Source: a virus
Direction: 5' to 3' (one strand)
Virus record (IMG/VR): IMGVR_UViG_3300046368_000086
Location: 1 to 21,599 of that record
Length of the DNA: 21,599 nt
The notes beneath the pieces were generated by a model. The model had not been told where the DNA came from, ran no database searches, and saw only the letters and a program-made list of their open reading frames with translations. The position numbers and the translations under genes are program-made. Positions 6,233-21,599 of the stretch are shown one piece after another; position 1 is the stretch's first letter; the number at the start of each line of letters is the position of its first letter.

Positions 6233-7174
6233 ATGGCATATCAATCAATCGGGCGTGGAACTACTGCGAATGATGGCACTGGTGACGATCTTCGCACAGG
6301 TGCGGGCAAAGTCAACGCCAACTTCGTAGAAGTATACACTCTGTTGGGTGATGGTTCTACACTAACTACTGACACAGTAACACTAAACACTGCAACTCAG
6401 ACACTAACCAACAAAACAATAACAGGAACTTTCACTGGTAATATCACAGGGGATGTTACTGGAAACGTAACAGGTAATGTTACTGGAGACTTGACAGGTA
6501 ATGTCACTGGTGCTGTTACAGGTAATGTTACTGGAGACTTGACAGGGGATGTCACTGGTGCTGTTACAGGTAATGTTACTGGAGACTTGACAGGGGATGT
6601 AACAGGTAATGTTTCAACATCATCTGGTAATTTACAGTTGACTGCTGCAACTCAAATCGTTGAAGTGCGTGGTGATGGTTCTGCAACAGAAGGTGCAATT
6701 GTTCTTAACTGTGAAACTAATGCACACGGACAGACAATCAAACCACAACCACACAGTGCGGCAGTAACAAATGAATTGTTACTTCCAGCTGGTGCCAACT
6801 CAACTCTTGTATCAGAAGTTGCAACACAGACACTAACTAACAAGACATTAACTGACCCTACTATTACTGGAACAGGTGCAATCGCTGGTGTATTTACTGG
6901 TGATATTACTGGTAACGTAACTGGTAATGTATCTGGTAATGTATCTGGTAACGTAGATGGTATCGTTGGTGGAACAACTCCTGCTGCTGGAACATTCACA
7001 GACTTGACTGCAAGTGGTGCTGTTCAATTGGCAGTCTATGCAGATACAACTGCAAGAGATGCCGCAATTACAAGTCCTGCTGCTGGTATGATTGCTTTCG
7101 TAATAGATGGTGACGGTGGTGGAACTGCTCAATTCCAAGGGTATGACGGTTCTGCTTGGGTTGTATTGAATTAA
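6233..7174 (+). CDS. tail-fibre-like protein with GNVTGDVT repeats
   Basis: The 313-residue protein starts with a module common at the front of marine T4-like fibre proteins (TTANDGTGDDLRTGAGKVNA and NFVEVYTLLGDG, about residues 10-42), probably for baseplate attachment. It then has ATQTLTNKTITG followed by about 60 residues of 4-residue repeats (GNVT, GDVT, GDLT, GAVT), a pattern expected of an elongated beta-helical shaft. A central domain (about 128-200) precedes a second TNKT/TGNV repeat block (about 198-243). The C-terminal module (YADTTARDAAITSPAAGMIA) ends in FQGYDGSAWVVLN. AGGGG lies upstream of the ATG. It heads a fibre cassette followed by the glycine-rich protein. The exact structural role, long or short fibre, cannot be told. 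Confidence 0.85.
   Translation: MAYQSIGRGTTANDGTGDDLRTGAGKVNANFVEVYTLLGDGSTLTTDTVTLNTATQTLTNKTITGTFTGNITGDVTGNVTGNVTGDLTGNVTGAVTGNVTGDLTGDVTGAVTGNVTGDLTGDVTGNVSTSSGNLQLTAATQIVEVRGDGSATEGAIVLNCETNAHGQTIKPQPHSAAVTNELLLPAGANSTLVSEVATQTLTNKTLTDPTITGTGAIAGVFTGDITGNVTGNVSGNVSGNVDGIVGGTTPAAGTFTDLTASGAVQLAVYADTTARDAAITSPAAGMIAFVIDGDGGGTAQFQGYDGSAWVVLN
6473..6600 (+). repeat. 48-bp tandem repeat in the fibre shaft
   Basis: Copies start at 6473, 6521 and 6569 with the word GGTAATGTTACTGGAGACTT. The first two are full length (48 bases) and differ only in GGTA versus GGGG inside the unit; the third matches for 32 bases. Each unit encodes four 4-residue repeats, so gain or loss of a unit changes shaft length by 16 residues without changing frame. 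Shorter 12-base repeats of the same kind flank it (6436-6472) and recur at about 6897-6960. Confidence 0.9.
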
Positions 7175-7192
7175 CGGATAGGATAAAGAAAC

Positions 7193-8698
7193 ATGGCAAT
7201 TGATAAAATTACAGCAAGTGGACTTGGGGATGGTGGAGTATCAACTGCTGACTTGGCAGACGGTGCGGTTACTACTGCAAAGATTACAGATGGTGAAGTT
7301 ACGTTTGCAAAATTGAATGCAGATGCACAACCTACACCAACTCAAGTTTCAGACCAACCTAATACTTCAACTGGTGGATTCAGTATGCCTGCTGGGACAA
7401 CTGCACAAAGGCCAGGCACTCCAGATACAGGTGAATCAAGATATAATTCTGAAACTGGTTCTCTAGAATTCTATGATGGAGCAAACTGGATTACAACAAA
7501 CTTAATCCCTACAGTTGATTCTGTTTCTGGAACAATTTATAACGGAATTGCATCTGACTTAACACTTTCTTTATCCAACGCAACAGATTCTATTGATGTA
7601 GTATTTAAAGAGGGTGTAACAACTTTAGCAACAGTTTCTAGTGTTTCAGTATCATCTGGTTCTGCTACGGTAACAGTTCCAAGTGAAGTTTATGGACAGA
7701 CTGTTGGTGACACGATTACAATTAATATTAATAATACTGATGGAACTCCATCCTCTAATTCACAAACCAAAACTGTTATTGCAACACCTACTGGTGGAAC
7801 AATAACATCTGTTGGTGGTGATAGAGTTCACACATTTACTACATCATCTAGTTTTGTTGTTCCCGCTGGAATTTCTCTTTCTAATGTTGACTTTTTGGTT
7901 CTCGCTGGCGGCGGCGGTGGTGGAACACACAACGCTGGTGGCGGTGGTGCTGGTGGACTACGAACTTCATTTGGAAGCACTTCTGGTGGTGGCGCATCTG
8001 CACAATCTGCTATTTCTACAATGGGAGCTGCAACTTATACTGTAGTTGTGGGGCCGGGTGCTGGACGAAAAGGTGATGCTGGAAACGGTAGGAGAGGGGA
8101 CAGCGGAACTGGTTCTTCAATCTCTGGAAGTGGAATTACAACAATCTCCACATCTGGTGGCGGTGGTGGGTGTTCTGGCAATGATGGAACGGCTGGACTA
8201 ACTGGTGGATGCGGTGGTGCTGGATATAATAATGGCAATAATGGACAGGGAACTACTGGTGAAGGATATGCCGGTGGAGCTGGTAACTCAACACAAGACA
8301 TAGGTGGCGGTGGCGGAACTGCTGCGCTTGGCCAAGACGGTTCTGATGGGAATTATGCTGGTGACGGCGGTGCTGGACTCCAAGTAAACATTGATGGTAA
8401 TAACTACTATTGGGGTGGCGGTGGAGGCGGCGCTGGTTATGAACCGAGTGACCCATCTGGTGATGGTGGGATTGGCGGCGGCGGTGGCGGCGCTGGTGGT
8501 GACAGTTCTCCAGGCGGCGCTGGTGGCGGCTCTGCAATTAACTCTGGTGCAGCTGGAAACAGTGTTTCTCAAACCGGCGGACAAGGCGGTGACGGTGGTG
8601 CAAACTCTGGCGGTGGAGGCGGTGGCACTTCAAGGCCTGGCAGTTATGGTGGTGCTGGTGGAAAAGGCATTGTCATTTTAAGATATACATTATCATAG
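7193..8698 (+). CDS. glycine-rich adhesin-like tail fibre protein, copy A
   Basis: The 501-residue protein has four parts. Residues 1-45 carry the repeat DGAVTTAKITDGEVTFAKL. Residues 60-100 carry a common fibre module (RPGTPDTGESRYNSETGSLE then FYDGANW). Residues 100-205 form a beta-rich, Ig-like stretch (VSVSSGSATVTVPSEVYGQT). From about 207 a beta segment (HTFTTSSSFVVPAG, then VDFLVLAGGGGGG) leads into about 250 residues very rich in glycine, closing with GKGIVILRYTLS. Such glycine-rich tips are known from T-even gp38-type adhesins, where they pack as polyglycine II helices and bind host receptors; that role here is inference. AGGATA precedes the start. Copy B lies at 18957-20321. Confidence 0.85.
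   Translation: MAIDKITASGLGDGGVSTADLADGAVTTAKITDGEVTFAKLNADAQPTPTQVSDQPNTSTGGFSMPAGTTAQRPGTPDTGESRYNSETGSLEFYDGANWITTNLIPTVDSVSGTIYNGIASDLTLSLSNATDSIDVVFKEGVTTLATVSSVSVSSGSATVTVPSEVYGQTVGDTITININNTDGTPSSNSQTKTVIATPTGGTITSVGGDRVHTFTTSSSFVVPAGISLSNVDFLVLAGGGGGGTHNAGGGGAGGLRTSFGSTSGGGASAQSAISTMGAATYTVVVGPGAGRKGDAGNGRRGDSGTGSSISGSGITTISTSGGGGGCSGNDGTAGLTGGCGGAGYNNGNNGQGTTGEGYAGGAGNSTQDIGGGGGTAALGQDGSDGNYAGDGGAGLQVNIDGNNYYWGGGGGGAGYEPSDPSGDGGIGGGGGGAGGDSSPGGAGGGSAINSGAAGNSVSQTGGQGGDGGANSGGGGGGTSRPGSYGGAGGKGIVILRYTLS
7376..7446 (+). repeat. dispersed near-identical repeat, copy 1 (partner 19077-19147)
   Basis: These 71 bases match 19077-19147 with only two differences (G7396 to A, and T7432 to C at the matching sites). 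They encode the GFSMPAGTTAQRPGTPDTGE module shared by the two glycine-rich fibres. Similarity continues at a lower level to about 7730. The stretch could serve as a site for homologous recombination between the two adhesin genes. Confidence 0.9.
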
Positions 8699-8711
8699 GA
8701 GAAGAATTAAT

Positions 8712-9116
8712 ATGTCATATTTTGCAAAAGTTAAAGATGGTAAGGTGATTGATATGTTGGTTGCTGAGCAAGATTTTGTTGATTCATACAGTGACGGTAA
8801 AGCTGGTGTTTGGATTCAGTGTTCGTATAATGTTATTGGTGGGGTGTATTATGACCCATCAACAGGAGAACCTGCTGAAACTCAATCTGATTTTATCAAC
8901 GATGAAAATCCAGCAAGAAAAAGAAAAAATTATCCAAGTGTTGGATGGAACTATGATGTCACAAGAGATGCGTTCTATGATATTCAACCATATCCAAGTT
9001 GGACATTAAATGAAACAACTTGTAATTGGGAAGCGCCTGTTGATAGACCAGATTACGATAATATTTACACTTGGAATGAAGAAACCCAAACTTGGGATGC
9101 TGTAGAAGCAGAATAA
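8712..9116 (+). CDS. conserved small protein following the glycine-rich fibre, copy A
   Basis: The 134-residue protein is paralogous to the one at 20335-20730. They share the start (FAKVKDGKVIDMLVAE here, FAKVINGKVVNVVVAE there), a WIQ.SYN..GGV.YDP.TGEP block at about 34-54, DYD/NYD..RDAF near 80-88, a NETTC.W.APV block at about 100-110, and a tail of WNEETQTWDAV. Proteins like this are common in marine T4-like phages, usually beside fibre genes, with no known function that I can name. Many Trp/Tyr residues and no signal or membrane segment suggest a compact soluble domain. An AGGAGAAG at 8698-8705 gives strong initiation. A fibre accessory, capping or assembly role is inferred from the repeated pairing. 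Confidence 0.85.
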   Translation: MSYFAKVKDGKVIDMLVAEQDFVDSYSDGKAGVWIQCSYNVIGGVYYDPSTGEPAETQSDFINDENPARKRKNYPSVGWNYDVTRDAFYDIQPYPSWTLNETTCNWEAPVDRPDYDNIYTWNEETQTWDAVEAE

Positions 9117-9119
9117 ATA
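9112..9119 (+). promoter_or_regulatory. possible weak late promoter before gp8
   Basis: AATAAATA differs by one base from the T4 late box TATAAATA and overlaps the stop of the preceding gene, 18 bases before the gp8 ATG. The same near-match occurs at the same place after the paralogous gene (20726-20733), so it may be only shared gene-end sequence. Confidence 0.3.
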
Positions 9120-9137
9120 ATATTATAGGAAAAAACA

Positions 9138-10604
9138 ATGGCAGCGATTATTACTGAAAATTTCAGACAACATAATGCAGAACAGTTTTTTGAGTCATTC
9201 TCAGAAGCTGCTGCATCAACATACTATTTGTTCATTGGTAAGAGCTCCCCTTTTACTAATTCAACATCTGGTGGCGATGACAACTCACCTCCTGTTCCAA
9301 AGGATGATGTGACTACAGAATTTTATAAATGGGATTCAATGCTCGCTGCTAAGTTGATCTCATCTTCTGATGTATCTTATGTTATCCCTCGTAGAAACTG
9401 GACAAACAATACAGTATACGATATGTATGAACACGACATTAGTAGTTCAAATACGACTACTTCTGGTGCATCAAACTTGTATGACGGAACATTCTACTTT
9501 ATGACTTCAGAATATAAAGTCTATAAAGTGCTTGACAATAATGGTGGAACTGCATATAGTGGTTCTGAACCAACTGGAACAGATACCTTCCCTGTAGAAA
9601 TTGGTGGATATACAATTCAGTATATGTATTCCATTTCTACATCAGAAATTCAAAAGTTTCTAACCTCAGATTTTATTCCAGTATCTACTGAAACTGCTGT
9701 AAGTAATCAAGCAGTTGATGGTTCTATTGACGTAGTTCGTGTTACTGTTGGTTCTGGTTATACAGACGGAACTTACTATGCTGCAATTGATGGTGACGGA
9801 ACTGGTGGTGTTGTAGAAATTTTAGTTTCTGGTGGCGCAATTGTCAAACAGGGTTCTGCTGGAACTAATGTGACAACTCCAGGCTCTGGTTACACATTTG
9901 GTAATGTTGACTTGACAGATGTTTACACAACAAGTGCTTTGACGGTATCTGATAATATCGGTTCAGGCACAGGTGGTTCAGTCGTTCCAATCATTTCACC
10001 AAAGGGTGGACATGGTAAAGATGCTGTTGCAGAACTTGGTGGACATTATGTTATGATGAACTCTAAGTTAGAACAGGCAGAAGGTGATGATGTTACAGTT
10101 GCAAACGATTTCAGAGAAGTAGGAATTATTAAAGATCCATACAACTTTGGAACAACAACTATTTCTTCTGCATCTACTCGTAGACAGTCACTTGCAATTA
10201 AGATGGCATCTGCTCCTGTTAGTGCATATGAGATTGATGAAAAAGTTACTCAGTCAACAACTGGTGCAGTAGGTAGAGTTGTAGAATGGGACGCAACAAA
10301 TAACATCCTATATATTCTACAAGAAAGATTTACAGACTATGGTATTGCTGCTTCTGGCAATCAAGTTGCATTTAGTGGTGCAAATACTATCACTGGTGCT
10401 ACCTCTGGTGCTGCTGCAATTCCTTCTGCTACTGCAAGTGAGACTGTAACTCTTGCTGGGGGAACAGTTCTTACATTTACTTCTGGTTATAACAATCCAG
10501 AACTAGAACCAAACAGTGGTAAAATTCTTTATATAGAAAACAGACGCCCAATATCTCGTGCTTCTGACCAAACAGAAGATATCAAAATCGTAGTGGAATT
10601 CTAA
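9138..10604 (+). CDS. gp8: baseplate wedge subunit gp8
   Basis: The 488-residue protein matches T4 gp8 at both ends. Near the start are IITENFRQHNAEQFFESF, YYLFIGKSSPFTN and IPRRNW (83-88; T4 has IPRRDW). At the end ILYIENRRP (463-471) and DQTEDIKI (477-484) correspond to T4 IYMENRPP and DQTEEINI. Gp8 is an outer wedge protein that bridges gp7 and gp10 in T4. It is about 150 residues longer than T4 gp8. The extra length falls in a GSGYT-type segment (about 205-262) and in a TGAVGRVVEW / ITGATSGA segment (about 367-430), both modules also found in the neighbouring large proteins. It follows AGGA at 9127-9130. It is separated from gp6 and the gp7-position gene by a fibre cassette. Confidence 0.9.
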   Translation: MAAIITENFRQHNAEQFFESFSEAAASTYYLFIGKSSPFTNSTSGGDDNSPPVPKDDVTTEFYKWDSMLAAKLISSSDVSYVIPRRNWTNNTVYDMYEHDISSSNTTTSGASNLYDGTFYFMTSEYKVYKVLDNNGGTAYSGSEPTGTDTFPVEIGGYTIQYMYSISTSEIQKFLTSDFIPVSTETAVSNQAVDGSIDVVRVTVGSGYTDGTYYAAIDGDGTGGVVEILVSGGAIVKQGSAGTNVTTPGSGYTFGNVDLTDVYTTSALTVSDNIGSGTGGSVVPIISPKGGHGKDAVAELGGHYVMMNSKLEQAEGDDVTVANDFREVGIIKDPYNFGTTTISSASTRRQSLAIKMASAPVSAYEIDEKVTQSTTGAVGRVVEWDATNNILYILQERFTDYGIAASGNQVAFSGANTITGATSGAAAIPSATASETVTLAGGTVLTFTSGYNNPELEPNSGKILYIENRRPISRASDQTEDIKIVVEF

Positions 10605-10607
10605 ACA

Positions 10608-13600
10608 ATGGAAAAAACCAATCTTAATGTGTCACCATACTATGATGACTTTGCTGAAAACAAAGATTTTCATAGAGTTCTCTTTCGTCCAGGCTTTGCC
10701 GTTCAGGCAAGAGAACTAACTCAACTACAGTCTATCCTACAGAATCAAATTGAAAGACATGGACGCCATGTATTCAAAGAGGGAACAGTAGTTATCCCTG
10801 GCGCAGTTGGTTTTACAAATGAATACTATGCAGTTAAACTACAGTCTACTATTTCATCTACGGATATCTCTACTCAAATCCAAGATTATGTTGGTAAGAG
10901 AATTACTGGAACAACCTCTGGCGTTGTTGCAGAAGTTATTCAGGCAGTCGCTGCAACTACAGAAGACCCTATTACACTATTTGTAAAGTATATTAGAACT
11001 GGTTCTGATAACGTAACAACTGTATTCCAAAACGGAGAAAGAATCTCTGCAAACGGAACAGTGGGTTCTTTTGGAAGTGGTATTGATAGTGCTGTTCTAC
11101 AAACAGCAAATGCTACTGCAACTGGTTCTTCTGCAAATATTGAAGAGGGTGTCTACTTTATTCGTGGACATTTTGTTCGTGTTGCAAATCAAAGATTGGT
11201 TCTAGACAAATATACTGACACACCATCTTATCGTGTTGGACTTACTATTACAGAGGCCCTAGAGACTCCAGAAGAAGATGCGACCCTATTGGACAACGCA
11301 CAAGGAACTTCTAACGTAAACGCAAAGGGCGCTCACAGACTCAAGTTTACACTAACCCTTGCAAAACTAGAACTCACTTCTACTGCCGATGAAAACTTTG
11401 TTGAACTTATTCGTGTCAATAATGGAATTATTGAAAAGAAGGCAAGGAATACAGAATACTCAGTTCTGGGCGAAACTCTTGCTCGTAGAACAAATGATGA
11501 GTCTGGTGATTATACAGTTCGTGATTTTCAATTTGATATTCGTGAGAATGCAAATGATGGTTTAAACAATGGTATCTATGCTATCGGTGCAACCACTGAT
11601 GATGGAAACATTGCATCTGATGATTTTCTTTCTATTCAAGTATCGCCTGGTAAGGCATATGTTCGTGGATATGAGATTGAAACGGTTTCACCAAAATATA
11701 TTGATATTCCTAAACCAAGAAGTTTTGAAAATTACAATGGTTCAATTACTCCTGTTGAAGTGGGTAACTATGTGGTAGTCAAGAAAGTTCATGGACAACC
11801 AGAGATATCCCCAGAAATTTCTGGTGAGATTGATGAACCATATCGTGAGATTGAACTTTTTGATACTCAGACTGCTACTCGTGGTTCGTCATCTGGAACT
11901 AAGATTGGTTTTGCTCGTGCAAGGGCATTTGAACATTTTGAAGGAAACACTGGTTCTGGTGTTGACTTAGTAGTTGATTCTACAAACACCGATACAAAAT
12001 ACAAACTCTATTTGTTCGACATTCGTATGTTTACAGATATTACTTTGAGTGGAACTCCAGGCTCTGGACAAGTTCCTCAAGGTGCAAAAGTTACAGGTGT
12101 GAATTCTGGTGCATATGGATATGTTGCAAGTTCATCTACAGGAACAAAACTTGTTCTTACATCTGTTGTTGGAACATTTACAAATGGCGAAAAATTAAAA
12201 TCAACTTCATCTATAGCCTCTGACGAGATTATTGATGATAACGCAACTGCTGGTTCTGGAACAGACTTAACTATTAGTTCTTTTGTTACACAGGATTTCA
12301 GTTCTGTAAAACAAGTTTACATGAATGACCCAGATACAGGCGATGCAGATTTCTCTGCTGACGTTGATCTTAGTAACACAATTAATATTACTGGATTGGT
12401 TTCATATACTTCAAGCACAACAGTCAACGGTTTTCAAACAGACTTTACAACTGAACTTAAAGTTGGTGATATTATTTCTCTTCCAACTGGTGCCGCTGGT
12501 ATATTGGAAGAAAGAAGAGTTACTGCTGTAACAGATAATACAACACTAACTGTTGCTTCTGCATTCAGTAATGCTGTTACTTCTGTTACTGCAACAAGAC
12601 TAAGAGCTCAACTTACTGATCAACAGAAAAATATTCTTCTTCGTAAGTTGCAGAAGAGTGGCATTAAAACATTAAAGACAGATAGTAATGGTGGAGTATC
12701 AGATACTAGTCTTGTAATTCGCCGTTCGTTTGAAGATAGTTCTTCAAGTGGTTCTGTATCATTCCTCGCTGGTTCTAACGAAACATTTAATGCAGTTGAC
12801 AATGAAGATTATGTTCTTATCATCGTTACTGCTGGTTCGGGAACAGGTGCAACTGGTGACATTGTGAACCTTAATAGTTCTAATGTAACTGTATCTGGAG
12901 CCGGAACAAACGCACTAACAATTACTTCTGCAAGTATACTTGGTAATGGTGCTGAGGTTCGTTTAATTGCAACTCTAACAAGAACTGTTGCTGGTGAAAA
13001 AATTAAAACAAGAACTCGTATGCACCAAGTCGTTGTTGATAATGACGGAATTGCTGGTGGTGCTGAATACGGAACATCTGCACATCATAAAGATGTTTCT
13101 TTGGGTGTTGCTGATATTCACAAACTATATGCAATCTATGATTCTGAAGATAGTTCTGCAAATCCATCTTTGCCGCAATGGACAATTACTGGTGCCTCTG
13201 GTTCGTTTACCAAAGGTGAATTAATTACTGGTGCAACATCTGGTGCAATTGGAAGAATTATTAACCCAATTTCTCCTATAACATTCATTCCAGTAAATGG
13301 TGCAAGTTTTATATCTGGTGAAACAATCACTGGTGCAGAAAGTTCACAGTCTGCTACACTTGATACCTTTACAGATGGTTCTCGTGACATTACTTCAAAT
13401 TTTGTTCTTGACAATGGACAGAGAGATAACTATTATGATATAGGACGTATTGTTCGCAAAGCTTCTGCGACTTCTCCTACTGGTAGGCTCTTGATTGTCT
13501 GTGATTATTTTGAACATGGTTCTGGTGATTTCTTTACTGTAGATTCTTATGCATCTATTAGTTACAAAGATATTCCAACTTATACTGCTACTCGTGTTGA

Positions 13601-16600
13601 TCCAGAGGTTGCAGAACCTACTGGTGAATATGATTTGAGAGATGCTGTTGACTTCAGACCTCGTGTTGCTGATGCGACTACATCAACTGTAACAATACAA
13701 TCTCAAACAGTAAGTAAAGTTACTTCAATGTCATTTAACTTTGAGGATCGTTCTTTTGCTGGAACTGGTGCTTCTACAATTGATATTCCAAAAGACAACT
13801 CAAACTTTGCATATGATTTTGATTTCTATATTGGTAGAATAGATTCTTTATTCCTAACACCAGAAGGCAAATTTAAACTCATTACTGGTGCCGCATCAGA
13901 AAATCCAGTTGAACCAAAACCATTAGATAATGCGATGCATCTTGCTAAAATTAATTTGAACCCATATATCTTAGATATATCGGATGCAGATTTTACAAGA
14001 ACTAATAATCGCAGATACACAATGCGTGACATTGGTAAACTTGAAACTCGTATTAATAATATTGAATATTATACTGCACTCTCTCTTTTAGAGAAAGAGG
14101 CACAAGGACTTGAGATTCAAGATTCAAACGGATTGAATAGATTTAAGTCTGGTATTCTTGTCGATAACTTTAGAGGACACGCTACTGGTGATGTTAAACA
14201 TCCAGACTATCGTGCTGCTATTGATATGCAGGCAAGTGAACTTCGTCCAAAATATTATATGAAGGGCGTAACTCTTATTGAAGAGAACACCACTGATGCA
14301 GAAAGAACAGTCGATCAGTATCAAAAAACTGGTGACGTTCTAACTCTTCCTTATGCACATAAGGTTACTGCATCACAACCATATGCAACTAGAATTGAAA
14401 ACCTAAACCCTGTTCTAAACTTTGCATGGGCTGGTATTTGTGTATTGTCACCATCTGGTGATGAATGGTTTGAAGTCAATAAACTTCCAGATATTGTTAT
14501 TAATAGAGAAGGAAACTTTGACACCGTATTTGCACAGAATAGAAATGCTATCGGAACTATTTGGGGTGCATGGCAATCGCAGTGGGGTGGAACAGTTCAA
14601 AGTAGAACAGAAACATTTAGAGACACCTCTTGGGCTCGTGCAAGAAGTCGTGTTCCTTTCCGACCAATTATTAGAAGAACTACACTAACATCCTCTGACG
14701 GTGGCCCACTTGTAAGACAAGGTGTTCAGACTTCTGTTATTCCACAGATTGATGTTGAGTCACAAGGAAATAAAGTATTATCTCGTGCATTGATTCCATT
14801 CATTCGTGCAAGAAATGTTACCTTTACTGTTACTGGTATGAAACCTTTAACTAAGGTATATCCTTTCTTTGATAAAACTAATGTTACCAGATATGTTACT
14901 CCTTCTGGTGGTTCTTTGGGTGGAGACTTGATAACTTCTGCTGCTGGTAAGATAGAGGGAATATTCTCAATTCCAGACCCTAATACTAGAGGCAATCCTC
15001 AGTTCAGAACTGGTGATAGACTCTTTAGGTTGACTTCTTCATCTACAAATGCAGAAACTCCTCAACCAGAAACATTCGCACAGGCAATCTATTCTGCAAC
15101 TGGTATTCTTACAACAACACAAGAAACCTTTATTGCAACTCGTAATGCTCGTGTAGAAGTTAGAAATGTTCAACAGACTGCCAATCCGGCTATTCGTGAT
15201 GAGATTGTTGGTTGGTGGGATCCGCTTGCACAATCATTTATGCCACAGGCAGAGGGTGGAGAATTTATCACTAAAGTTGATGCATACTTCCAAGGTAAAG
15301 ATGAAGATTTGCCAGTAACCTGTCAGATTAGAGAAATGCAGAATGGTTATCCTACAACAACTGTTCTTCCATTTGCATCAAAGGTTCTAGAACCTTCTGA
15401 AGTAAGTCTATCTGATGACGCTTCTGTTGCAACAACATTCTCGTTTGACCAACCTGTCTATGTGAAGAATGGAGTAGAATATTGTATTGTTCTACAAACA
15501 GATTCAAACAAATATTTTGCATGGATTTCACGAATGGGTGAAACAGATGTTGGTGGCTCTCGTTTGGTTTCTGAACAACCATATCTTGGGGTTCTCTTTA
15601 AGTCACAGAACAATACGACTTGGACTGCATATGACTTTGAAGATTTGAAGTTTAATCTTTATCGTGCTCAGTTTGATACGTCTAAGACAGGAACGATTAC
15701 TTTAAACAATGATGCTATTTCATCTAAGAACTTAGAACCAAATCCGATTAGAACAATCAATGGACAGTCACTTGTTAAGATAACACATCGTGATCATCAT
15801 ATGTATGACATAGATAATAATGTAGTTATTAGTGGTGTAAGTTCTGGTATTAATTCAACATTGTCAACCACACTTGCTGCTGCTGGTTCTTCAATTTCAT
15901 TATCCTCAACCTCTGGTTGGCCTTCATCTGGAACAGTCTATGTTAAAATTGAAGATGAGGTTATTGAGGGAACTATTTCTGGTGCAACTATTACCGTTGT
16001 AACTCGTGGAGTAGAAGGTAGTGATGTGGAACACGCAAGTGGAACTACAGTTGAATATTATGTTTTGAATGGTATTCCTTTGACAGAGGTAAACAAAACA
16101 CACAACGCTATTGCAAATATTGGTATTGACTCATATACTGTTGCAACAACCGCTGCTGCATCTTCTGATGGAACTGGTGGTGGTAGTAACGTCTATGCCT
16201 CTGAAAACGCACAGGCAGATGTGTTCCAACCTTTTGTTCCTACAATCGAATTCCCAGATACTTCTCTTACTGCAAAAGTAAGAACTACAACTGGAACATC
16301 TCCAAGTGGTTCTCAGAACTCATTTACAAAACAAACACTATCACAGGCAATTAGTATTCCTGTTGATGATGAATACTATTTTGCTAATCCAAAGATTATT
16401 GCATCATCAATAAACGAAACATTAGAACTTGCTGGTGATAAGTCACTCAATCTCATATACACAATTACATCTAGTTTAGATAATCTATCTCCTGTAATTG
16501 ATTTGGATAGAAGGACTGCTGTGATGATTGCAAACCGTTTGGATAATATTGATAGTTCTGCTGATGTATATCCTACAGAGGACTATGTATCTCCAACAGA

Positions 16601-16973
16601 CCCAGACGGTGATAACAATGAAGTAATTTATTGCACTCGTAAAGTTACATTGAAAACTCCTGCTACTGCAATTAAATGTTATTTGGATGCAGTTAAGTTT
16701 GATAGTGCTGAAATTCAAGTCATGTATAAGATACTTCGTTCTGATGATGCATCAGACTTTGATGAAATTGGTTGGACATACTTTAATGGCACTGGAACTC
16801 CAGACAACGCCGTTAACTCTTCAGTAGATACAACAGACTTTATTGAAAGAGAATACACTGTAGATGGATTGCAAGAGTTTATTTCTTTCGCAATTAAGAT
16901 TCGTATGCAAGGAACAAATACTTCAGAAGTTCCTCGTATCAAGGATCTAAGAGCGATTGCATTGGCGACATAA
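10608..16973 (+). CDS. giant DUF4815-type virion structural protein
   Basis: This 2121-residue protein opens with the DUF4815 signature: LNVSPYYDDF then GFAVQARELTQLQSILQNQI (29-48) and FKEGTVVIPG. Family landmarks continue with LYLFDIRMFTDI (about 467), YDLRDAVDFRPRV (about 1010), FYIGRIDSLFLTPEGKFKL (about 1073), a TMRDIGKLETRINNIEYYTA helix (about 1140) and WDPLAQSFMPQAEGG (about 1535). GE.ITG.TSGA modules sit near 96-111, 491-508, 869-887 and 903-922. A TSGWPSSGTVYVKI / VTRGVEGSDVEHASG module (about 1765-1810) looks inserted. It is a virion protein next to gp8 in related phages and may do the work of T4 gp7 or gp10, but that is inference. It starts three bases after the gp8 stop with no strong ribosome site, which suggests coupling. 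Confidence 0.88.
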   Translation: MEKTNLNVSPYYDDFAENKDFHRVLFRPGFAVQARELTQLQSILQNQIERHGRHVFKEGTVVIPGAVGFTNEYYAVKLQSTISSTDISTQIQDYVGKRITGTTSGVVAEVIQAVAATTEDPITLFVKYIRTGSDNVTTVFQNGERISANGTVGSFGSGIDSAVLQTANATATGSSANIEEGVYFIRGHFVRVANQRLVLDKYTDTPSYRVGLTITEALETPEEDATLLDNAQGTSNVNAKGAHRLKFTLTLAKLELTSTADENFVELIRVNNGIIEKKARNTEYSVLGETLARRTNDESGDYTVRDFQFDIRENANDGLNNGIYAIGATTDDGNIASDDFLSIQVSPGKAYVRGYEIETVSPKYIDIPKPRSFENYNGSITPVEVGNYVVVKKVHGQPEISPEISGEIDEPYREIELFDTQTATRGSSSGTKIGFARARAFEHFEGNTGSGVDLVVDSTNTDTKYKLYLFDIRMFTDITLSGTPGSGQVPQGAKVTGVNSGAYGYVASSSTGTKLVLTSVVGTFTNGEKLKSTSSIASDEIIDDNATAGSGTDLTISSFVTQDFSSVKQVYMNDPDTGDADFSADVDLSNTINITGLVSYTSSTTVNGFQTDFTTELKVGDIISLPTGAAGILEERRVTAVTDNTTLTVASAFSNAVTSVTATRLRAQLTDQQKNILLRKLQKSGIKTLKTDSNGGVSDTSLVIRRSFEDSSSSGSVSFLAGSNETFNAVDNEDYVLIIVTAGSGTGATGDIVNLNSSNVTVSGAGTNALTITSASILGNGAEVRLIATLTRTVAGEKIKTRTRMHQVVVDNDGIAGGAEYGTSAHHKDVSLGVADIHKLYAIYDSEDSSANPSLPQWTITGASGSFTKGELITGATSGAIGRIINPISPITFIPVNGASFISGETITGAESSQSATLDTFTDGSRDITSNFVLDNGQRDNYYDIGRIVRKASATSPTGRLLIVCDYFEHGSGDFFTVDSYASISYKDIPTYTATRVDPEVAEPTGEYDLRDAVDFRPRVADATTSTVTIQSQTVSKVTSMSFNFEDRSFAGTGASTIDIPKDNSNFAYDFDFYIGRIDSLFLTPEGKFKLITGAASENPVEPKPLDNAMHLAKINLNPYILDISDADFTRTNNRRYTMRDIGKLETRINNIEYYTALSLLEKEAQGLEIQDSNGLNRFKSGILVDNFRGHATGDVKHPDYRAAIDMQASELRPKYYMKGVTLIEENTTDAERTVDQYQKTGDVLTLPYAHKVTASQPYATRIENLNPVLNFAWAGICVLSPSGDEWFEVNKLPDIVINREGNFDTVFAQNRNAIGTIWGAWQSQWGGTVQSRTETFRDTSWARARSRVPFRPIIRRTTLTSSDGGPLVRQGVQTSVIPQIDVESQGNKVLSRALIPFIRARNVTFTVTGMKPLTKVYPFFDKTNVTRYVTPSGGSLGGDLITSAAGKIEGIFSIPDPNTRGNPQFRTGDRLFRLTSSSTNAETPQPETFAQAIYSATGILTTTQETFIATRNARVEVRNVQQTANPAIRDEIVGWWDPLAQSFMPQAEGGEFITKVDAYFQGKDEDLPVTCQIREMQNGYPTTTVLPFASKVLEPSEVSLSDDASVATTFSFDQPVYVKNGVEYCIVLQTDSNKYFAWISRMGETDVGGSRLVSEQPYLGVLFKSQNNTTWTAYDFEDLKFNLYRAQFDTSKTGTITLNNDAISSKNLEPNPIRTINGQSLVKITHRDHHMYDIDNNVVISGVSSGINSTLSTTLAAAGSSISLSSTSGWPSSGTVYVKIEDEVIEGTISGATITVVTRGVEGSDVEHASGTTVEYYVLNGIPLTEVNKTHNAIANIGIDSYTVATTAAASSDGTGGGSNVYASENAQADVFQPFVPTIEFPDTSLTAKVRTTTGTSPSGSQNSFTKQTLSQAISIPVDDEYYFANPKIIASSINETLELAGDKSLNLIYTITSSLDNLSPVIDLDRRTAVMIANRLDNIDSSADVYPTEDYVSPTDPDGDNNEVIYCTRKVTLKTPATAIKCYLDAVKFDSAEIQVMYKILRSDDASDFDEIGWTYFNGTGTPDNAVNSSVDTTDFIEREYTVDGLQEFISFAIKIRMQGTNTSEVPRIKDLRAIALAT

Positions 16974-16974
16974 G

Positions 16975-17202
16975 ATGGCAGAATATATTCAAGTAAAAGA
17001 TCATCCCGACCTTGTAAGAGACACACAGTCTCATGCAATAGTCAACACGAATATGAAAGCATATCAGGCTGCGGTTGAGCGCTCTCGTTCTGCACAAAAA
17101 CAAAGAGATGAACTAAGGGATGCAGTAAGAGACATAAATAACTTAAAGTGTGAAATGCACGAAATTAAAAGTCTTTTACTAGAATTAGTGGATAAGAAAT
17201 AA
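16975..17202 (+). CDS. short coiled-coil protein
   Basis: The protein has 75 residues when started at the ATG at 16975, one base after the previous stop. An in-frame ATG at 16957 would add six residues but overlaps the upstream gene, and MAEYIQVKDHPDLVRDTQSH is the more natural start. Residues of about 30-75 are almost all helix formers with regular hydrophobic spacing and many charges (AAVERSRSAQKQRDELRDAV), so a coiled coil is likely. Similar small proteins starting with a KDHPDLVRD motif occur beside structural genes in marine T4-like phages. It has no signal or membrane segment. The stop overlaps the next start as TAATG. Its function is unknown; an oligomerising adaptor or chaperone is possible. 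Confidence 0.8.
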   Translation: MAEYIQVKDHPDLVRDTQSHAIVNTNMKAYQAAVERSRSAQKQRDELRDAVRDINNLKCEMHEIKSLLLELVDKK

Positions 17203-17741
17203 TGGCAGATCGTAACGCACCAGCAAGTTTTACCTTTGAAGAGTGGAGAGTTGAGTTCAATGAACTGGCAACAGATGTCGGTGATATTGGAAACCTTCCA
17301 GCAACTATCAATGGTAATGCAGTCACAGATATTGTAGAGGCAGTTCAACAGTTAGAAAGCGCAATTTCAACTGTCCTCTTCCCTAATGTGATTGATTTTG
17401 ATGATTCGACAGGTGTATCCAGTGAAAGAATTAAACTGGGCACAGATGACGATATGCAAATTTTTCATGATGGGTCAAATTCAAAACTAACCCATGATGG
17501 TTCTGGTGACTTACAAATTGACTCTACATCTGATGTAACAATTGATGCAGTAACAGGTGTTAATCTTCAGTTTAATGGCTCAACAAAATTGGATACAATT
17601 AATACGGGCATTAATGTCACAGGTGATGTCCAACTTGATGGTGATATCACAGACGGTTCAACAGTTTTGTCTGTTGGAAACACAAGTGGAACAATTGCAA
17701 CACAAGGTTTCTCTGTGGCAATGGGTATTGCACTTGGATAA
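17202..17741 (+). CDS. short tail-fibre-like protein
   Basis: The 179-residue protein has a helical front (FTFEEWRVEFNELATDVGDI, residues 10-29, then DIVEAVQQLESAIS) that is common at the N-terminus of marine phage fibres and probably anchors to the baseplate or a coiled-coil partner. The module ERIKLGTDDDMQIFHDGSNS (75-94) and short beta repeats follow (DLQIDSTSDVTIDAVTGVN, INVTGDVQLDGDI). It ends in SVAMGIALG, close to the ALAIALG end of the fibre at 20762-21397. Both of these fibres are followed by a small MAN.FKN protein. The short shaft suggests a truncated or adaptor fibre rather than a full receptor-binding fibre. Its start overlaps the preceding stop. Confidence 0.8.
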   Translation: MADRNAPASFTFEEWRVEFNELATDVGDIGNLPATINGNAVTDIVEAVQQLESAISTVLFPNVIDFDDSTGVSSERIKLGTDDDMQIFHDGSNSKLTHDGSGDLQIDSTSDVTIDAVTGVNLQFNGSTKLDTINTGINVTGDVQLDGDITDGSTVLSVGNTSGTIATQGFSVAMGIALG

Positions 17742-17745
17742 TCAT

Positions 17746-17753
17746 TATAAATA
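17746..17753 (+). promoter_or_regulatory. T4-type late promoter box inside the second fibre region
   Basis: TATAAATA is an exact late-consensus match in the 39-base gap before 17781. The surrounding 18 bases (17745-17762) are identical to 6187-6204, the box before the first fibre region. It is followed by an AAAGGAAAA ribosome site. Confidence 0.72.
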
Positions 17754-17780
17754 AAGGTATAAACAAAGGAAAAAATCAGA

Positions 17781-18125
17781 ATGGCAAACAATTTTAAAAA
17801 TTCATTCGCAACAAGTGTTAGCACTTCTAGTGGGTCTCCTACTACAGTCTACACTGCGAACAATGGTTCTGCCGTCAACTCAATTCTGATTGAACTTGAT
17901 GTTGCAAACACAGGTTCATCTGCGGTTCAAGTGACTGTTATGATTTATGACAGTTCAGCAACCACAGAATATCACATTGTAAAAAATGCTCCTGTCCCTT
18001 CTGGCGGCGCATTGAAAGTGGTATCTGGTCAGAAAGTCGTGTTGAACGGTGACGATGAAGTTCGTGTATATGCAACTGCCGCTACAGTTGATGTAATATG
18101 TTCAATTCTAGAAGATGTATCGTAA
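17781..18125 (+). CDS. small beta-rich virion-associated protein, MAN.FKN family, copy 1
   Basis: This 114-residue protein starts MANNFKNSFATSVSTSSGSP and is rich in Val, Ser and Thr with alternating beta pattern (ILIELDVANTGSSAVQVTVM, then LKVVSGQKVVLNGDDEVRVYA). A paralog begins at 21413 (MANTFKNAALADV, then SSSAVTVKVQFGDTSATT). The alternating pattern and size fit a single beta-sandwich domain. It follows its own late promoter box and precedes a GDGST-repeat fibre. It has no signal peptide and no catalytic motif. A decoration or fibre-linked role is a guess from context; I do not recognise a named family. Confidence 0.78.
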   Translation: MANNFKNSFATSVSTSSGSPTTVYTANNGSAVNSILIELDVANTGSSAVQVTVMIYDSSATTEYHIVKNAPVPSGGALKVVSGQKVVLNGDDEVRVYATAATVDVICSILEDVS

Positions 18126-18138
18126 GGGGTAGAATATA

Positions 18139-18957
18139 ATGTCTGACGCATATATCGGTGTTCCATTTATAAACCAAGTCTCTACTACATTTCCTAAAGA
18201 GGATTTCAGTGGTAGTGCATTTGGTTCTGTTACTGGCGCTCACGGAACGTATTCAAATGCGATTGAGTTGAGTATTGACGTTCCAGGCAGTGAAGCAGGT
18301 AATATTGAAGTTCTTTATGACAATGTTCGTCAAGAACCCGATGTTGCATATTCAGTTCATGAAGACAGTTCTAACCGTCCAAGAATTTTAAACTTTTCAG
18401 AATCGGTTTCATCTTCTGCATCTATCTATGTAATTCATAAGGGTATCGGCCCTTATAACATGACTCCCCCAAACAATTCGATTACTGCAACTCAGTTATC
18501 GGAAGCAATGAAAACCTTCACTACAGATACTTTCTCTGGTGATGGTTCTACAACAGGTTTTACTCTATCAGAAACTCCACCAAATGTCAACACTCTTTTG
18601 GTGATGGTTGATGGTATCGTTCAGAAAGCAACGACTAACTATACTCTTTCTGGAACAACTCTTACATTCACTTCTGCTCCAGACAGTGCTGCAGAAATTG
18701 AAGTTAAACATTTAGGTGTTCGTGGTATTGTTCGTAGAGGCCCAGATTGGTTGATTGACAACTTTACTGGTGACGGCTCTACAACTACATATACACTGAC
18801 AACTGCTGGTGTTTCCACCAACAGTGCATGGGTTTATTATAACGGTGTGATGATGAAACCAACTACGGACTATACAGTAAACACATCCACAGGTGTTGTA
18901 ACATTTACATTCGCACCAGTTAGTGGAATGGAAATAATGGTGAGGTATCAAAACTAA
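18139..18957 (+). CDS. GDGST-repeat tail-fibre-like protein, copy 1
   Basis: The 272-residue protein contains two clear copies of a domain of about 77 residues, starting at FSGDGSTTGFTL (132) and FTGDGSTTTYTL (209). Each runs through a V.V(D/Y)(G/N)(I/V).(Q/M) strand, an NYTL/DYTV turn and TF(T/A)P/SAP to a closing beta strand (IEVKHLG, IMVRYQN). A worn-down third copy may occupy about 45-105 (IEVLYDNVRQEPDVAYSV). The N-terminus, MSDAYIGVPFINQVSTTF, is different and may attach it. The same domain appears twice in the fibre at 20762-21397. AAGGGG at 18124-18129 precedes the start, and the stop overlaps the glycine-rich fibre start as TAATG, tying the two together. A fibre or fibre-connector role is likely. 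Confidence 0.82.
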   Translation: MSDAYIGVPFINQVSTTFPKEDFSGSAFGSVTGAHGTYSNAIELSIDVPGSEAGNIEVLYDNVRQEPDVAYSVHEDSSNRPRILNFSESVSSSASIYVIHKGIGPYNMTPPNNSITATQLSEAMKTFTTDTFSGDGSTTGFTLSETPPNVNTLLVMVDGIVQKATTNYTLSGTTLTFTSAPDSAAEIEVKHLGVRGIVRRGPDWLIDNFTGDGSTTTYTLTTAGVSTNSAWVYYNGVMMKPTTDYTVNTSTGVVTFTFAPVSGMEIMVRYQN

Positions 18958-20321
18958 TGCCCAGTAAATCAAAAACAATTGCAGAAATTATTGAATTAGA
19001 TGGTGATATTGTCGTAAGTGCATTGGACAATGTTGACCCATCATATGTTTCCGATAAATCAAACTCATCTACAGGCGGATTCAGTATGCCTGCTGGAACA
19101 ACTGCACAAAGGCCAGGCACTCCAGATACAGGCGAATCAAGATATAACTCTACTACTGGTTCTCTAGAATTTTATGATGGAACGGCATGGATTGCAACAA
19201 ACTTGATTCCTACAGTTGATTCTGTTACAGGAACAATTTATAATGGACTTGCAACCGACTTAACTCTATCATTATCTAATGCAACAGATTCTATTGATGT
19301 TTTATTTAAAGAAGGCGCAACAACCCTTGCAACGGTTACTGGGGTCTCAGTATCATCTGGTTCTGCAACAGTAACAGTTCCAAGTGCAGTCTACGGTCAG
19401 ACTGTTGGTGATACAATTGCAATTAGTGTTAAAAACCAAGATGGAACTCCATCTGGCAATTCACAAACTAAAACTGTCATTGGATTGCCTACTGGTGGAG
19501 ATGAATATACTTCTGGTAATTATAAGTATCATAAATTTACTAACAACTCTCAAACACTAGTTGTTCCTACTGGATTCACAACGAGCGCTGAATATCTAAT
19601 CATAGCCGGTGGCGGCGGTGGTGGTGATAATGAAGGCGGCGGAGGCGGTGGTGCTGGTGGAGTTCGTAACGGCAATGTTACAATCACTGCACAAACTTAT
19701 ACTGTTGGAATTGGTGGCGGTGGTGGAGTTAATACTAATTTTGGGGCTGGTTCAGATGGTGGAGATTCCCAAATGTTTGGTATCCTTGCAACCGGCGGTG
19801 GTGGCGGCGGTGGTGGCGGTCAATCTGGCTCTGCTGGTGTAGAATTTGGACGTGATGGCGGCTCTGGTGGCGGCGGTGGGGGTGATGTAAACCAAACCCA
19901 AACCTCAGGCGGTTCTGGAACTGCTGGACAAGGTAATGCCGGCGGTTTCGGTTTTCATTATGGTGGTTCTCATATTTCTGGTGGAGGCGGCGGTGGTGCC
20001 GGTGCTGTTGGCGGCAATGGTTCTACCACAACTACTGGTCAAGGTGGCGCTGGTGGCACTGGAACTAATTCTTATTCTGCATGGGCAACTGCAACATCTT
20101 CTGGTGCATCTGGTTATTATGCCGGCGGTGGTGGTGGCGGTATGCACGCTTCCGGCACAGGGCCTGGCGCTGGTGGTGCTGGCGGTGGCGGCGGCGGTGG
20201 TGACGGTGGAAGTGCTGGAACTGCATTCACTGGCGGCGGCGGTGGAGGCGGCGGTAACGGAGACGCTTATAGTGGTGGTTCTGGAATCATCATTGTCAGA
20301 TATGACACAACGGCACTTTAA
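18957..20321 (+). CDS. glycine-rich adhesin-like tail fibre protein, copy B
   Basis: This 454-residue protein is a paralog of 7193-8698. Residues of about 40-180 are nearly the same as in copy A (RPGTPDTGESRYNSTTGSLE, FYDGTAWIATNLIPTVDSV, VSVSSGSATVTVPSAVYGQT). The first 35 residues differ (SKTIAEIIELDGDIVVSALD) and lack the DGAVTTAKI repeats of copy A. From about 190 a beta entry (YHKFTNNSQTLVVPTGF, then YLIIAGGGGGG) leads into about 230 glycine-rich residues with their own loop sequences, ending GSGIIIVRYDTTAL. As with copy A, a gp38-like polyglycine II receptor-binding tip is the best reading but is inferred. It is coupled by TAATG to the preceding fibre and followed by the 131-residue partner. 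Confidence 0.85.
   Translation: MPSKSKTIAEIIELDGDIVVSALDNVDPSYVSDKSNSSTGGFSMPAGTTAQRPGTPDTGESRYNSTTGSLEFYDGTAWIATNLIPTVDSVTGTIYNGLATDLTLSLSNATDSIDVLFKEGATTLATVTGVSVSSGSATVTVPSAVYGQTVGDTIAISVKNQDGTPSGNSQTKTVIGLPTGGDEYTSGNYKYHKFTNNSQTLVVPTGFTTSAEYLIIAGGGGGGDNEGGGGGGAGGVRNGNVTITAQTYTVGIGGGGGVNTNFGAGSDGGDSQMFGILATGGGGGGGGGQSGSAGVEFGRDGGSGGGGGGDVNQTQTSGGSGTAGQGNAGGFGFHYGGSHISGGGGGGAGAVGGNGSTTTTGQGGAGGTGTNSYSAWATATSSGASGYYAGGGGGGMHASGTGPGAGGAGGGGGGGDGGSAGTAFTGGGGGGGGNGDAYSGGSGIIIVRYDTTAL
19077..19147 (+). repeat. dispersed near-identical repeat, copy 2 (partner 7376-7446)
   Basis: This is the second copy of the 71-base stretch shared by the two glycine-rich fibre genes, with two mismatches. It is the best conserved part of a longer similarity of roughly 350 bases at about 85% by eye. 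Confidence 0.9.
19794..19820 (+). repeat. GGN glycine-codon microsatellite in copy B
   Basis: Nine consecutive glycine codons use only GGC and GGT. Similar runs are at 20232-20255 (eight Gly codons) and, in copy A, 8474-8491 (six). They are in-frame triplet runs, so slippage would change the number of glycines without a frameshift. Confidence 0.85.
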
Positions 20322-20334
20322 GGAGATTATGTAA

Positions 20335-20730
20335 ATGGCACATTTTGCAAAAGTAATAAATGGTAAAGTTGTTAATGTCGTGGTTGCTGAACCAGAATGG
20401 TTAGACACATTTGTTGATACAACTCCAGGCGAATGGATTCAAACTTCTTATAATACTAGAGGTGGTGTTCACTATGACCCCGAAACTGGTGAACCAAGTT
20501 CAGACCAAACAAAGGCACTAAGAAAAAATTTTGCTGGTAAAGGTATGGATTACGATAGAGAAAAGGATGCGTTTATTCCAGTTAAACCTTTTGAATCATG
20601 GAATTTTAATGAAACAACTTGTCTTTGGGATGCGCCTGTAGAAATTCCAGCAGACTCTACTCGCAACGGTGGAGAGGTTAGATATAATTGGAATGAAGAA
20701 ACCCAAACATGGGATGCAGTAACCGAATAA
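20335..20730 (+). CDS. conserved small protein following the glycine-rich fibre, copy B
   Basis: This 131-residue protein is the paralog of 8712-9116 and sits in the same place, directly behind a glycine-rich fibre. Shared blocks are FAKV.(N/D)GKV near the start, WIQTSYNTRGGVHYDPETGE (34-53), DYDREKDAF (72-80), FNETTCLWDAPVEIP (91-105) and a WNEETQTWDAV tail. LRKNFAGKGMDYD is the common form in related marine phage proteins; copy A has diverged there. A strong AAGGAGATT overlaps the upstream stop. It has no known function. The repeated pairing suggests it folds, caps or modifies the adhesin, or is itself part of the fibre tip. Confidence 0.85.
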   Translation: MAHFAKVINGKVVNVVVAEPEWLDTFVDTTPGEWIQTSYNTRGGVHYDPETGEPSSDQTKALRKNFAGKGMDYDREKDAFIPVKPFESWNFNETTCLWDAPVEIPADSTRNGGEVRYNWNEETQTWDAVTE

Positions 20731-20733
20731 ATA
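20726..20733 (+). promoter_or_regulatory. possible weak late promoter before the last fibre
   Basis: AATAAATA has one mismatch to the late box and overlaps the stop codon of the preceding gene. The AAAGGTAG before the next ATG is the ribosome site. The matching near-box after the paralogous gene (9112-9119) may reflect shared ancestry rather than function. Confidence 0.28.
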
Positions 20734-20761
20734 TGATTAAGAAATTTAAAGGTAGAAACTA

Positions 20762-21397
20762 ATGGCATATATTGGAGCAGAACCGTCCTACGGTGTATTT
20801 GAAAGACAGGTGATTACTGGTGATGGTTCAACCACACAGTATGCACTTGACCATACAGTTGCGTCACCAACTCAGTTGTTGGTGGTTCTAGGTGGTATTG
20901 TCCAAGAGCCTGAGTATTCCTACTCTACCTCAACAACTAGTGGTGTTTCGTATATCAACTTCTCTGAGGCACCAGATGCCGCAGATAGAGGTTCTATTGT
21001 TTATATGGGTAGACAGTTACTTACTGCTGCCGCAACGAATTCAAATACTCATATTGATGAGTTTAATGGTGATGGTTCTACAACTGCCTTCACTCTAACA
21101 GAGGTTCCAGCTTCAAATACGGCAGAGAACTTTATGGTATTTGTTGATAATGTTTACCAGAGAAACGGTGCATCTTATGCTTACACTGTTGCTGGTTCAA
21201 CCTTGACATTTACTTCTGCTCCTTCAAGTGGAACAAATAATATTCAAGTCATTCAACTGAATGGAGTGAACACACTAAATAGTGTTGCAGATGGAAGTAT
21301 TACAACTGCAAAGATTCAAAACACTGCGGTCACAAGAGCGAAACTAGACTTTGACCCAGAAGACGATGCAACTGCATTGGCAATTGCTTTAGGATAA
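20762..21397 (+). CDS. GDGST-repeat tail-fibre-like protein, copy 2
   Basis: The 211-residue protein begins MAYIGAEPSYGVFERQVITG and has two GDGST domains starting near residues 18 (ITGDGSTTQYAL) and 101 (FNGDGSTTAFTL). Each continues through a V(V/F)(L/V)(G/D)(G/N) strand with a Q residue and a TFTSAP or NFSEAP turn, the same fold pattern as in 18139-18957. The C-terminus has VADGSITTAKIQNTAVTRAK, the module found at the N-terminus of glycine-rich copy A, then ends ALAIALG. Its front end resembles the MAYIG starts seen on many marine phage fibre or connector proteins. It is followed at once by another MAN.FKN gene, as is the short fibre at 17202. It is likely a fibre or fibre connector. Confidence 0.82.
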   Translation: MAYIGAEPSYGVFERQVITGDGSTTQYALDHTVASPTQLLVVLGGIVQEPEYSYSTSTTSGVSYINFSEAPDAADRGSIVYMGRQLLTAAATNSNTHIDEFNGDGSTTAFTLTEVPASNTAENFMVFVDNVYQRNGASYAYTVAGSTLTFTSAPSSGTNNIQVIQLNGVNTLNSVADGSITTAKIQNTAVTRAKLDFDPEDDATALAIALG

Positions 21398-21412
21398 CAT
21401 AGGAAAAAAAAC

Positions 21413-21599
21413 ATGGCGAACACTTTCAAAAATGCTGCTCTTGCTGATGTGAATGATAGTGCATATGATACTCTTTATACTGCACCGGCATCTACACAAG
21501 TAGTTGTTCTTGGACTCGCAATCGCAAATAAATCAAGTAGTGCGGTGACAGTCAAAGTTCAATTCGGTGATACATCTGCGACAACAACACACCAACTTT
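21413..21599 (+). CDS. small beta-rich virion-associated protein, MAN.FKN family, copy 2 (partial)
   Basis: The gene starts at 21413 after AGGAAAAA and stays open to the window end (62 residues seen). The start MANTFKNAALADVNDSAYDT, then VVVLGLAIANKSSSAVTVKV and FGDTSATTTHQL, lines up with the protein at 17781-18125 (MANNFKNS; VANTGSSAVQVTVM; DSSATTEYH). About 50 more residues would be expected beyond the window. Function is unknown, as for copy 1. Confidence 0.8.
   Translation, partial: MANTFKNAALADVNDSAYDTLYTAPASTQVVVLGLAIANKSSSAVTVKVQFGDTSATTTHQL

Follow-up and report, generated by a model that had tools for sequence, protein, structure and literature searches.

Two copies of a probable exchangeable adhesin cassette, pairing a glycine-rich fibre with a putative tip chaperone, in the baseplate region of a T4-like phage

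The tail fibre gp24 of the cyanophage Pam3 carries a TNF-like/glycine-rich head, which is bound by the N-terminal domain of the small chaperone gp25 in a 3:3 stoichiometry (PMC9608196). When expressed alone, gp24 was mostly insoluble, and its co-expression with gp25 yielded a soluble 3:3 complex; in Pam3 virions gp24 was detected and gp25 was not (PMC9608196). Here we describe two pairs of genes, each consisting of a glycine-rich fibre gene and a gene for a small partner protein of the family PHROG 7759, in 21,599 nucleotides (nt) of viral DNA (IMG/VR virus record IMGVR_UViG_3300046368_000086, positions 1 to 21,599; hereafter the window). Proteins are called glycine-rich when glycine makes up at least 25% of their last 250 residues. 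Like Pam3 gp24 and gp25 (PDB 7YPX and 7YFW), each pair combines a C-terminal TNF-like and glycine-rich head with a small chaperone, which is dedicated in Pam3 and predicted here. Pam3 has a single fibre, whereas the window has two fibre slots and fibres with long shafts. Judged from its sequence, the window covers part of the tail and baseplate genes of a T4-like myophage akin to Melnitz, a methylophage of OM43, with which it shares about 76% DNA identity across half of positions 6000-21599. Slot 1 lies between a gp10-like and a gp8-like gene, and slot 2 between the genes for a 272-amino-acid (aa) protein resembling the N-terminus of T7 tail fibres and a 211-aa protein. The two pairs are probably copies of one exchangeable adhesin cassette, in which the partner most likely serves as a folding chaperone specific to a class of tips and not as an adhesin itself.

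Other described systems resemble the pairs in part. Like the window, the Alteromonas phages A5 and V22 are marine, and their fibre and its cognate chaperone form a module common to distantly related phages (PMC10579305, PMC7289586). Their chaperone, however, is a DUF4376 protein with beta-hairpin tentacles and a helical body, and their fibre heads are lectin-like; the DUF4376 profile gave no match to the partner. Genes of the families PF02413 (Caudo_TAP) and PF16778 (Phage_tail_APC) lie directly behind a fibre gene, as the partner gene does. A “host recognition cluster” has been placed downstream of VrlC in pelagimyophages and cyanomyophages (PMC7029224), and slot 2 would correspond to the start of this known hypervariable cluster. 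The passages of that study consulted here describe neither the site of slot 1 nor an exchange of cassettes between two slots. Co-travelling fibre-chaperone modules (A5/V22, PMC10579305) and a glycine-rich fibre with a chaperone (Pam3) are already known. What is new, so far as the literature was searched, is the proposed function of PHROG 7759 and its restriction to one tip class, its replacement by a PF16778 protein in the slot, and the exchange between two slots with fixed anchors. No paper naming PHROG 7759 was found in this search. The proposal gives a testable role to a widespread phage family without an assigned function; a single scan of viral contigs yielded at least 571 relatives. It also shows how sequence alone can reveal a unit of host-recognition exchange in ocean phages, namely a tip and its partner moving between two fixed anchors. 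For phages with unknown host receptors, this offers a simple way to locate receptor-binding proteins and to produce them together with the partner.

The presence of two fibre-partner pairs in one order, as claimed in the original prediction, was confirmed to the nucleotide. The open reading frame (ORF) of fibre 1 (7193-8698, 501 aa) precedes that of partner 1 (8712-9116, 134 aa), and the ORF of fibre 2 (18957-20321, 454 aa) precedes that of partner 2 (20335-20730, 131 aa), with a gap of 13 nt in both pairs. The middle part of the fibres had been called nearly unchanged; it is closely related in the two copies but not identical, with 125 of 146 residues (86%) shared at the protein level and 84% identity at the nt level. 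In DNA comparisons, one block covered 300 nt at 83% identity, and positions 7346-7957 and 19047-19661 matched at 78%. The differences described for the other parts were found as well: the N-terminal parts (the first 35 or so residues) are 30% identical and the glycine-rich tips 43%, and the two partners share about half of their residues (51-53%). Glycine accounts for 38% of the last 250 residues in fibre 1 and 43% in fibre 2. Melnitz (Melnitz-3) carries a glycine-rich fibre and a partner at both slots, at sites matching those of the window. The pairs are not a chance arrangement, because the two-gene order recurs in the Melnitz slots and in roughly 100 further records and contigs. The two-pair layout is old, as each of the two slots of Melnitz holds a pair. 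Melnitz-3 also has a third glycine-rich and partner pair downstream (L003, 22697-25746), whose partner is a 115-aa member of PHROG 7759 and which is directly followed by another glycine-rich gene.

The pairing extends well beyond these two phages. Among phage records and 80 viral contigs, the partner gene directly follows a glycine-rich fibre gene in 95 of 104 cases, compared with 60 of 906 for other genes; the possibility that the family is usually unlinked to such fibres, which would have refuted the original prediction, can thus be set aside. The gap between fibre and partner is mostly -3 to 20 nt. In named phages, which infect SAR11, roseobacters, OM43, cyanobacteria and the actinobacterium Pontimonas, the gene immediately before that of the partner is in most cases glycine-rich. 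In S-SM1 the fibre is SSM1_049 and the partner SSM1_050; the annotated S-SM1 record marks virion-detected proteins inconsistently and was left out as evidence on virion content. The N-termini of the fibres differ among these partner-bearing phages, and their common part is the tip. A tblastn search at E 10 added only distant members from cyanophages and pelagiphages. Most partner genes detected in bacterial genome assemblies likewise lie behind a glycine-rich gene, including those in assemblies of Microvirga alba (L230) and of a metagenome-assembled Rhodopseudomonas genome (L241). These two are possibly prophages, in which case the cassette is not confined to lytic aquatic phages. Thirteen partner genes are preceded by two to five consecutive glycine-rich fibre genes that share the single partner. 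Arrays of three to five glycine-rich fibre genes with one terminal partner were seen in L086 (upstream of 5001), L053, L057, L093, L012, L017 and L244.

The 104 partners had been chosen via the partner itself, and a second survey, of the slots, was therefore made with partner-independent queries, namely the 272-aa protein and gp8. Among 65 dereplicated fibres from the two slots in relatives, a partner stood behind 21 of the 31 glycine-rich tips and behind none of the 34 other fibres (Fisher’s test: 7e-10). The ending of the tip sharpens this rule: tips that end in RY or YTA have a partner in 21 of 22 cases, and all the remaining slot fibres in none of 43. The three EEY tips lack the partner and are instead followed by a 116-117-aa ORF with a PF16778 match (6e-15, 6e-13 and 3e-18), so that a recognised tail-assembly chaperone occupies, in slot 1 of relatives, the exact place of the partner behind a related tip. 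None of the six KY tips has a partner or any other small downstream ORF. Within the glycine-rich class, the tip ending thus predicts the downstream neighbour, and on the tip tree the label for partner, tail fibre assembly (TFA) protein or neither changes three times, compared with a mean of 9.2 after shuffling. The two families also differ in the company they keep, PHROG 7759 being found almost solely behind glycine-rich fibres and PF16778 mostly behind others; 46 of 66 PF16778 proteins follow non-glycine fibres and 16 follow EEY-type glycine tips, and none in the same sample of 66 follows an RY-type glycine tip. One contig, L020, matches the window at 98.8% identity for 8.4 kb from the 3′ edge of slot 1 onwards, yet has in slot 1 a different glycine-rich fibre with a KY tip and no partner. 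Slot 1 of L020 represents a natural replacement of the cassette. Glycine-rich tips ending in VKY occur in slot 1 of L020 (1381-2946), L132, L137, L145, L160 and L168, with no small gene downstream; they are related to the partner-bearing tips, and would have to fold without a linked chaperone.

The extent of the exchanged unit was traced in 20-21 cassettes by counting the changes of slot label on trees of the four parts. The label changes once on the anchor tree, six times on the shaft tree, and seven times on both the tip and the partner trees. Block edges agree with this. Slot 1 of Melnitz and slot 2 of L218 share 1,700 nt at 87% identity, from fibre nt 126 and 75, respectively, just past the anchor, to nt 1823, where the partner gene ends. 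A block with matching limits, to nt 1822, is shared at 73% identity by slot 1 of L167 and slot 2 of L210, and slot 2 of the window is 94% identical to that of L208 until fibre nt 159 and divergent beyond. Together, the tree changes and the agreeing edges identify shaft, tip and partner as the exchange unit. These three move as one block, also between slots, and the anchors of about 40 residues stay with their slot. Within the unit, distances between tips and partners are weakly correlated (Mantel r 0.27, p 0.007), those between shafts and partners equally strongly (r 0.29), and those between anchors and partners hardly at all (r 0.03). This weak correlation, together with the 13 partners behind tandem fibre genes, argues against a strict one-to-one matching of tip and partner.

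As to the tip itself, an AlphaFold2 (AF2) model of the fibre-2 tip (predicted local distance difference test, pLDDT, 90.5; predicted template modelling score, pTM, 0.90) had its best fold match in the Pam3 tail fibre gp24 (7ypx_A; Foldseek E 1.9e-6), with a Z score of 15.5 and 3.0 Å over 183 residues at 30% identity. The next matches were tail-tip proteins of Bxb1 (Z 14.8), followed by the glycine-rich domains of ALK/LTK (Z 7.8). The tip is therefore predicted to have the fold of a Pam3 gp24-type TNF-like/glycine-rich fibre head, and the glycine content of the head end of Pam3 gp24 (39%) is close to that of the two fibres. The original prediction had taken the tips to be glycine-rich adhesins, which agrees with this fold, and had named gp38 of T-even phages as their analogue, for which the Pam3 head is a closer substitute. 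The window does resemble Salmonella phage S16 and T-even gp38 (PDB 6F45) in having a glycine-rich receptor-binding part at the fibre tip, but gp38 is a separate protein that caps the gp37 trimer, whereas in the window the fibre ORF itself ends in the glycine-rich head and the small partners are not glycine-rich. 6F45 was not among the tip fold matches listed, by which a three-layer polyglycine lattice is not excluded. In some tips of alignment A5 (e.g. L054, L059, L071 and L091), the strand GGTVTSSGGYTIHTFTSSGTF stands after, not before, the glycine-rich domain, as if by a permutation or a swap between chains.

The partner family had been said to lack an assigned role, and PHROG 7759 is indeed annotated as “unknown function”. 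Searches of Pfam, NCBIfam and PDB sequences placed the partner in no known sequence family; weak OCRE matches were disregarded as chance, and the PF02413 and PF16778 profiles matched none of the 71 members of set A4, even at E 5. In the AF2 model of partner 2 (pLDDT 92.7), the only solved structure matched at Z of at least 2 was the Pam3 chaperone gp25, at residues 3-56. It ranked first in Foldseek, at E 0.56, and the comparison with the N-terminal domain of gp25 gave Z 4.9 and 2.4 Å over 53 residues, a weak match confined to this domain, and one for which Z below 8 can reflect a common arrangement. The match gains weight because the N-terminal domain of gp25, which the N-terminal part of the partner most resembles, is the one that in Pam3 holds the partner-linked kind of head. 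A search of BFVD with the partner returned mostly unnamed phage proteins, probably of the PHROG 7759 family, together with two matches at insignificant E, to a “tail assembly chaperone” and to a DUF4376 protein. A profile of the partner scored 24.0 against the N-domain of the chaperones of the EEY-tip type, whereas none of 150 column shuffles scored above 22.3, although the subset used in this comparison was picked after the fact.

Besides the weakness of the gp25 match and the post hoc choice of that subset, several observations weigh against a chaperone role for the partner. gp25 belongs to the TFA group by sequence and has a C-terminal helical trimerisation domain, for which the partner-2 model has no counterpart; its only helices are short ones at 22-25 and 58-62, and its C-terminus is rich in strands. 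Sequence searches link the partner to no known chaperone family, and its profile, over the whole length, gave no match to a diverse PF16778 set. Glycine-rich tips without a partner exist (KY tips, one RY tip, and tandem fibre genes with one partner), and the partner is therefore not universally needed. A few partners stand behind other genes, namely 2OG-Fe(II) oxygenases and two non-glycine tail proteins. Finally, adjacency alone accounts for part of the co-transfer of tip and partner.

The two pairs are best read as copies of one exchangeable cassette, each inserted at a constant fibre site amid genes of the baseplate. The fibre would be a trimer and its C-terminal TNF-like/glycine-rich head the receptor-binding tip, by analogy with Pam3 gp24. 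The partner would act as an intermolecular assembly chaperone for this tip: its N-terminal beta domain may hold the head by its conserved stem until the long glycine-rich loops have folded without tangling and the three chains have come into register, and the partner may afterwards be released or kept loosely. It would be fitted to a class of tips and not to an individual tip, so that the gene tracks the tip class and is lost upon a swap to another tip type. The tip-class rule fits contact with the conserved stem better than contact with the variable end. Each of the two tips would bind a receptor, and the two receptors would differ. A wider version of the proposal, that PHROG 7759 is a separate class of tip-class-specific chaperones which fold TNF-like/glycine-rich heads without a helical trimerisation domain, and that tip and partner form a mobile cassette, common to phages of many aquatic bacteria, which in Melnitz-like phages can occupy either of the two fixed fibre sites and so gives a virion two tips that can be exchanged independently, seems to us evenly balanced between right and wrong.

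The partner might instead be a lasting component of the virion that caps the fibre tip, or forms a second adhesin subunit there, and helps to bind the receptor. Its downstream position and the co-transfer of the cassette would fit such a role equally well, and there are precedents: some chaperones remain on the fibre, as in Mu and Ur-lambda (PMC9608196), gp9 of A5 stays on the fibre in high salt (PMC10579305), Tfa of Mu has been proposed to play such a part, and gp38 caps gp37 in T-even phages. However, gp25 of Pam3, the nearest structural precedent, was undetected in virions in which its fibre was detected. Very different tips also have similar partners (partner 0.69 and tip 0.46 between slot 1 of L167 and slot 2 of Melnitz), a pattern contrary to that expected of a specificity subunit. 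We consider a virion component unlikely. A little less likely still is the reading of the original prediction, in which each pair forms one matched unit of specificity, with a partner co-adapted to its particular tip. Two partners that have diverged (52%) along with two diverged tips, the joint movement of tip and partner, and the Mantel p of 0.007 speak for it, but the correlation is no stronger than that of the shaft with the partner, and a single partner serves up to five tandem fibre genes. The claim that a partner must match each tip goes too far: the partner follows the class of the tip, and one-to-one matching proved weak when tested. That the partner is a passenger without a tip-linked function, hitch-hiking beside an often-exchanged fibre end, is very improbable. 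In its favour, co-transfer of neighbours is expected from proximity, the tip-partner correlation is weak and a few partners lie behind other genes, but the strict tip-class rule in fixed slots, the recurrence of the pairing with different fibre N-termini across phages of five host groups, the substitution of a Pfam tail-assembly chaperone behind another tip class and the gp25 fold match all stand against it.

A tip chaperone thus remains the preferred role of the partner, and the features of the two cassettes and of their flanks are collected in Table 1.

Table 1. Features of the two fibre-partner cassettes and flanking genes in the window.
Feature	Position	Strand	Evidence
Gene with T4 gp9/gp10-type N-terminus, left flank of slot 1	6233..7174	+	Pfam PF07880, E 5e-4; weak matches to PHROG 677/958; syntenic in relatives
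Fibre 1, slot-1 N-terminal anchor, about 40 first residues (MAIDKITASGLGDGG...)	7193..7312	+	Slot label changes once on the anchor tree
Fibre 1, middle (shaft) region, common to fibre 2	7346..7792	+	DNA block match; 125/146 aa identical in core
Fibre 1, TNF-like/glycine-rich tip	7793..8698	+	38% Gly in last 250 aa; aligned in A5; Gly_rich_2 below cut-off, E 0.001
Partner 1, PHROG 7759 family, probable tip chaperone	8712..9116	+	phrog_7759, E 9e-19
gp8-like baseplate wedge protein, right flank of slot 1	9138..10604	+	PF09215, E 2e-17; PHROG 438, E 1e-136
VrlC-like giant baseplate protein between the slots	10608..16973	+	Synteny, 69% identity to Melnitz gene; named by position and size after the pelagimyophage layout in PMC7029224
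272-aa protein with T7-tail-fibre-like N-terminal domains, left flank of slot 2	18139..18957	+	PF03906, E 1e-7
Fibre 2, slot-2 N-terminal anchor (MPSKSKTIAEI...)	18957..19076	+	Slot-specific; 94% DNA identity with L208 stops at fibre nt 159
Fibre 2, middle (shaft) region	19047..19493	+	Block match to fibre 1
Fibre 2, TNF-like/glycine-rich tip	19494..20321	+	43% Gly; AF2 model; Pam3 gp24 match; PF21722 above cut-off
Partner 2, PHROG 7759 family, probable tip chaperone	20335..20730	+	phrog_7759, E 3e-26; AF2 model; Pam3 gp25 N-domain match
211-aa protein, right flank of slot 2	20762..21397	+	92% identical in Melnitz

Some flanking genes show repeats of their own. In the gp10-like gene, a 12-nt tandem repeat in two blocks (6398-6979) codes for repeats of the TGNVTGDV type. 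Related copies stand on both sides of cassette 2: a 114-aa gene (17781-18125) has one at 21413-21599, and the gene resembling the T7 tail fibre N-terminus (18139-18957) has one at 20762-21397. The region therefore seems to have been assembled from several paralogous units.

Genes similar to 2OG-Fe(II) oxygenases occur within 3 kb of the partner in seven of 17 phage records, seven of 80 contigs and none of 101 slot contigs (L011-L014, L016-L018, L068, L083, L107, L111, L120, L125, L128 and L329), and in some cyanophages such a gene lies immediately before the partner. It is conceivable that the oxygenase modifies the glycine-rich fibre. At the other end of the window, positions 262-552 and 556-966 resemble, on reading by eye, a PAAR-type spike-tip protein and a protein with a thermonuclease fold, respectively.

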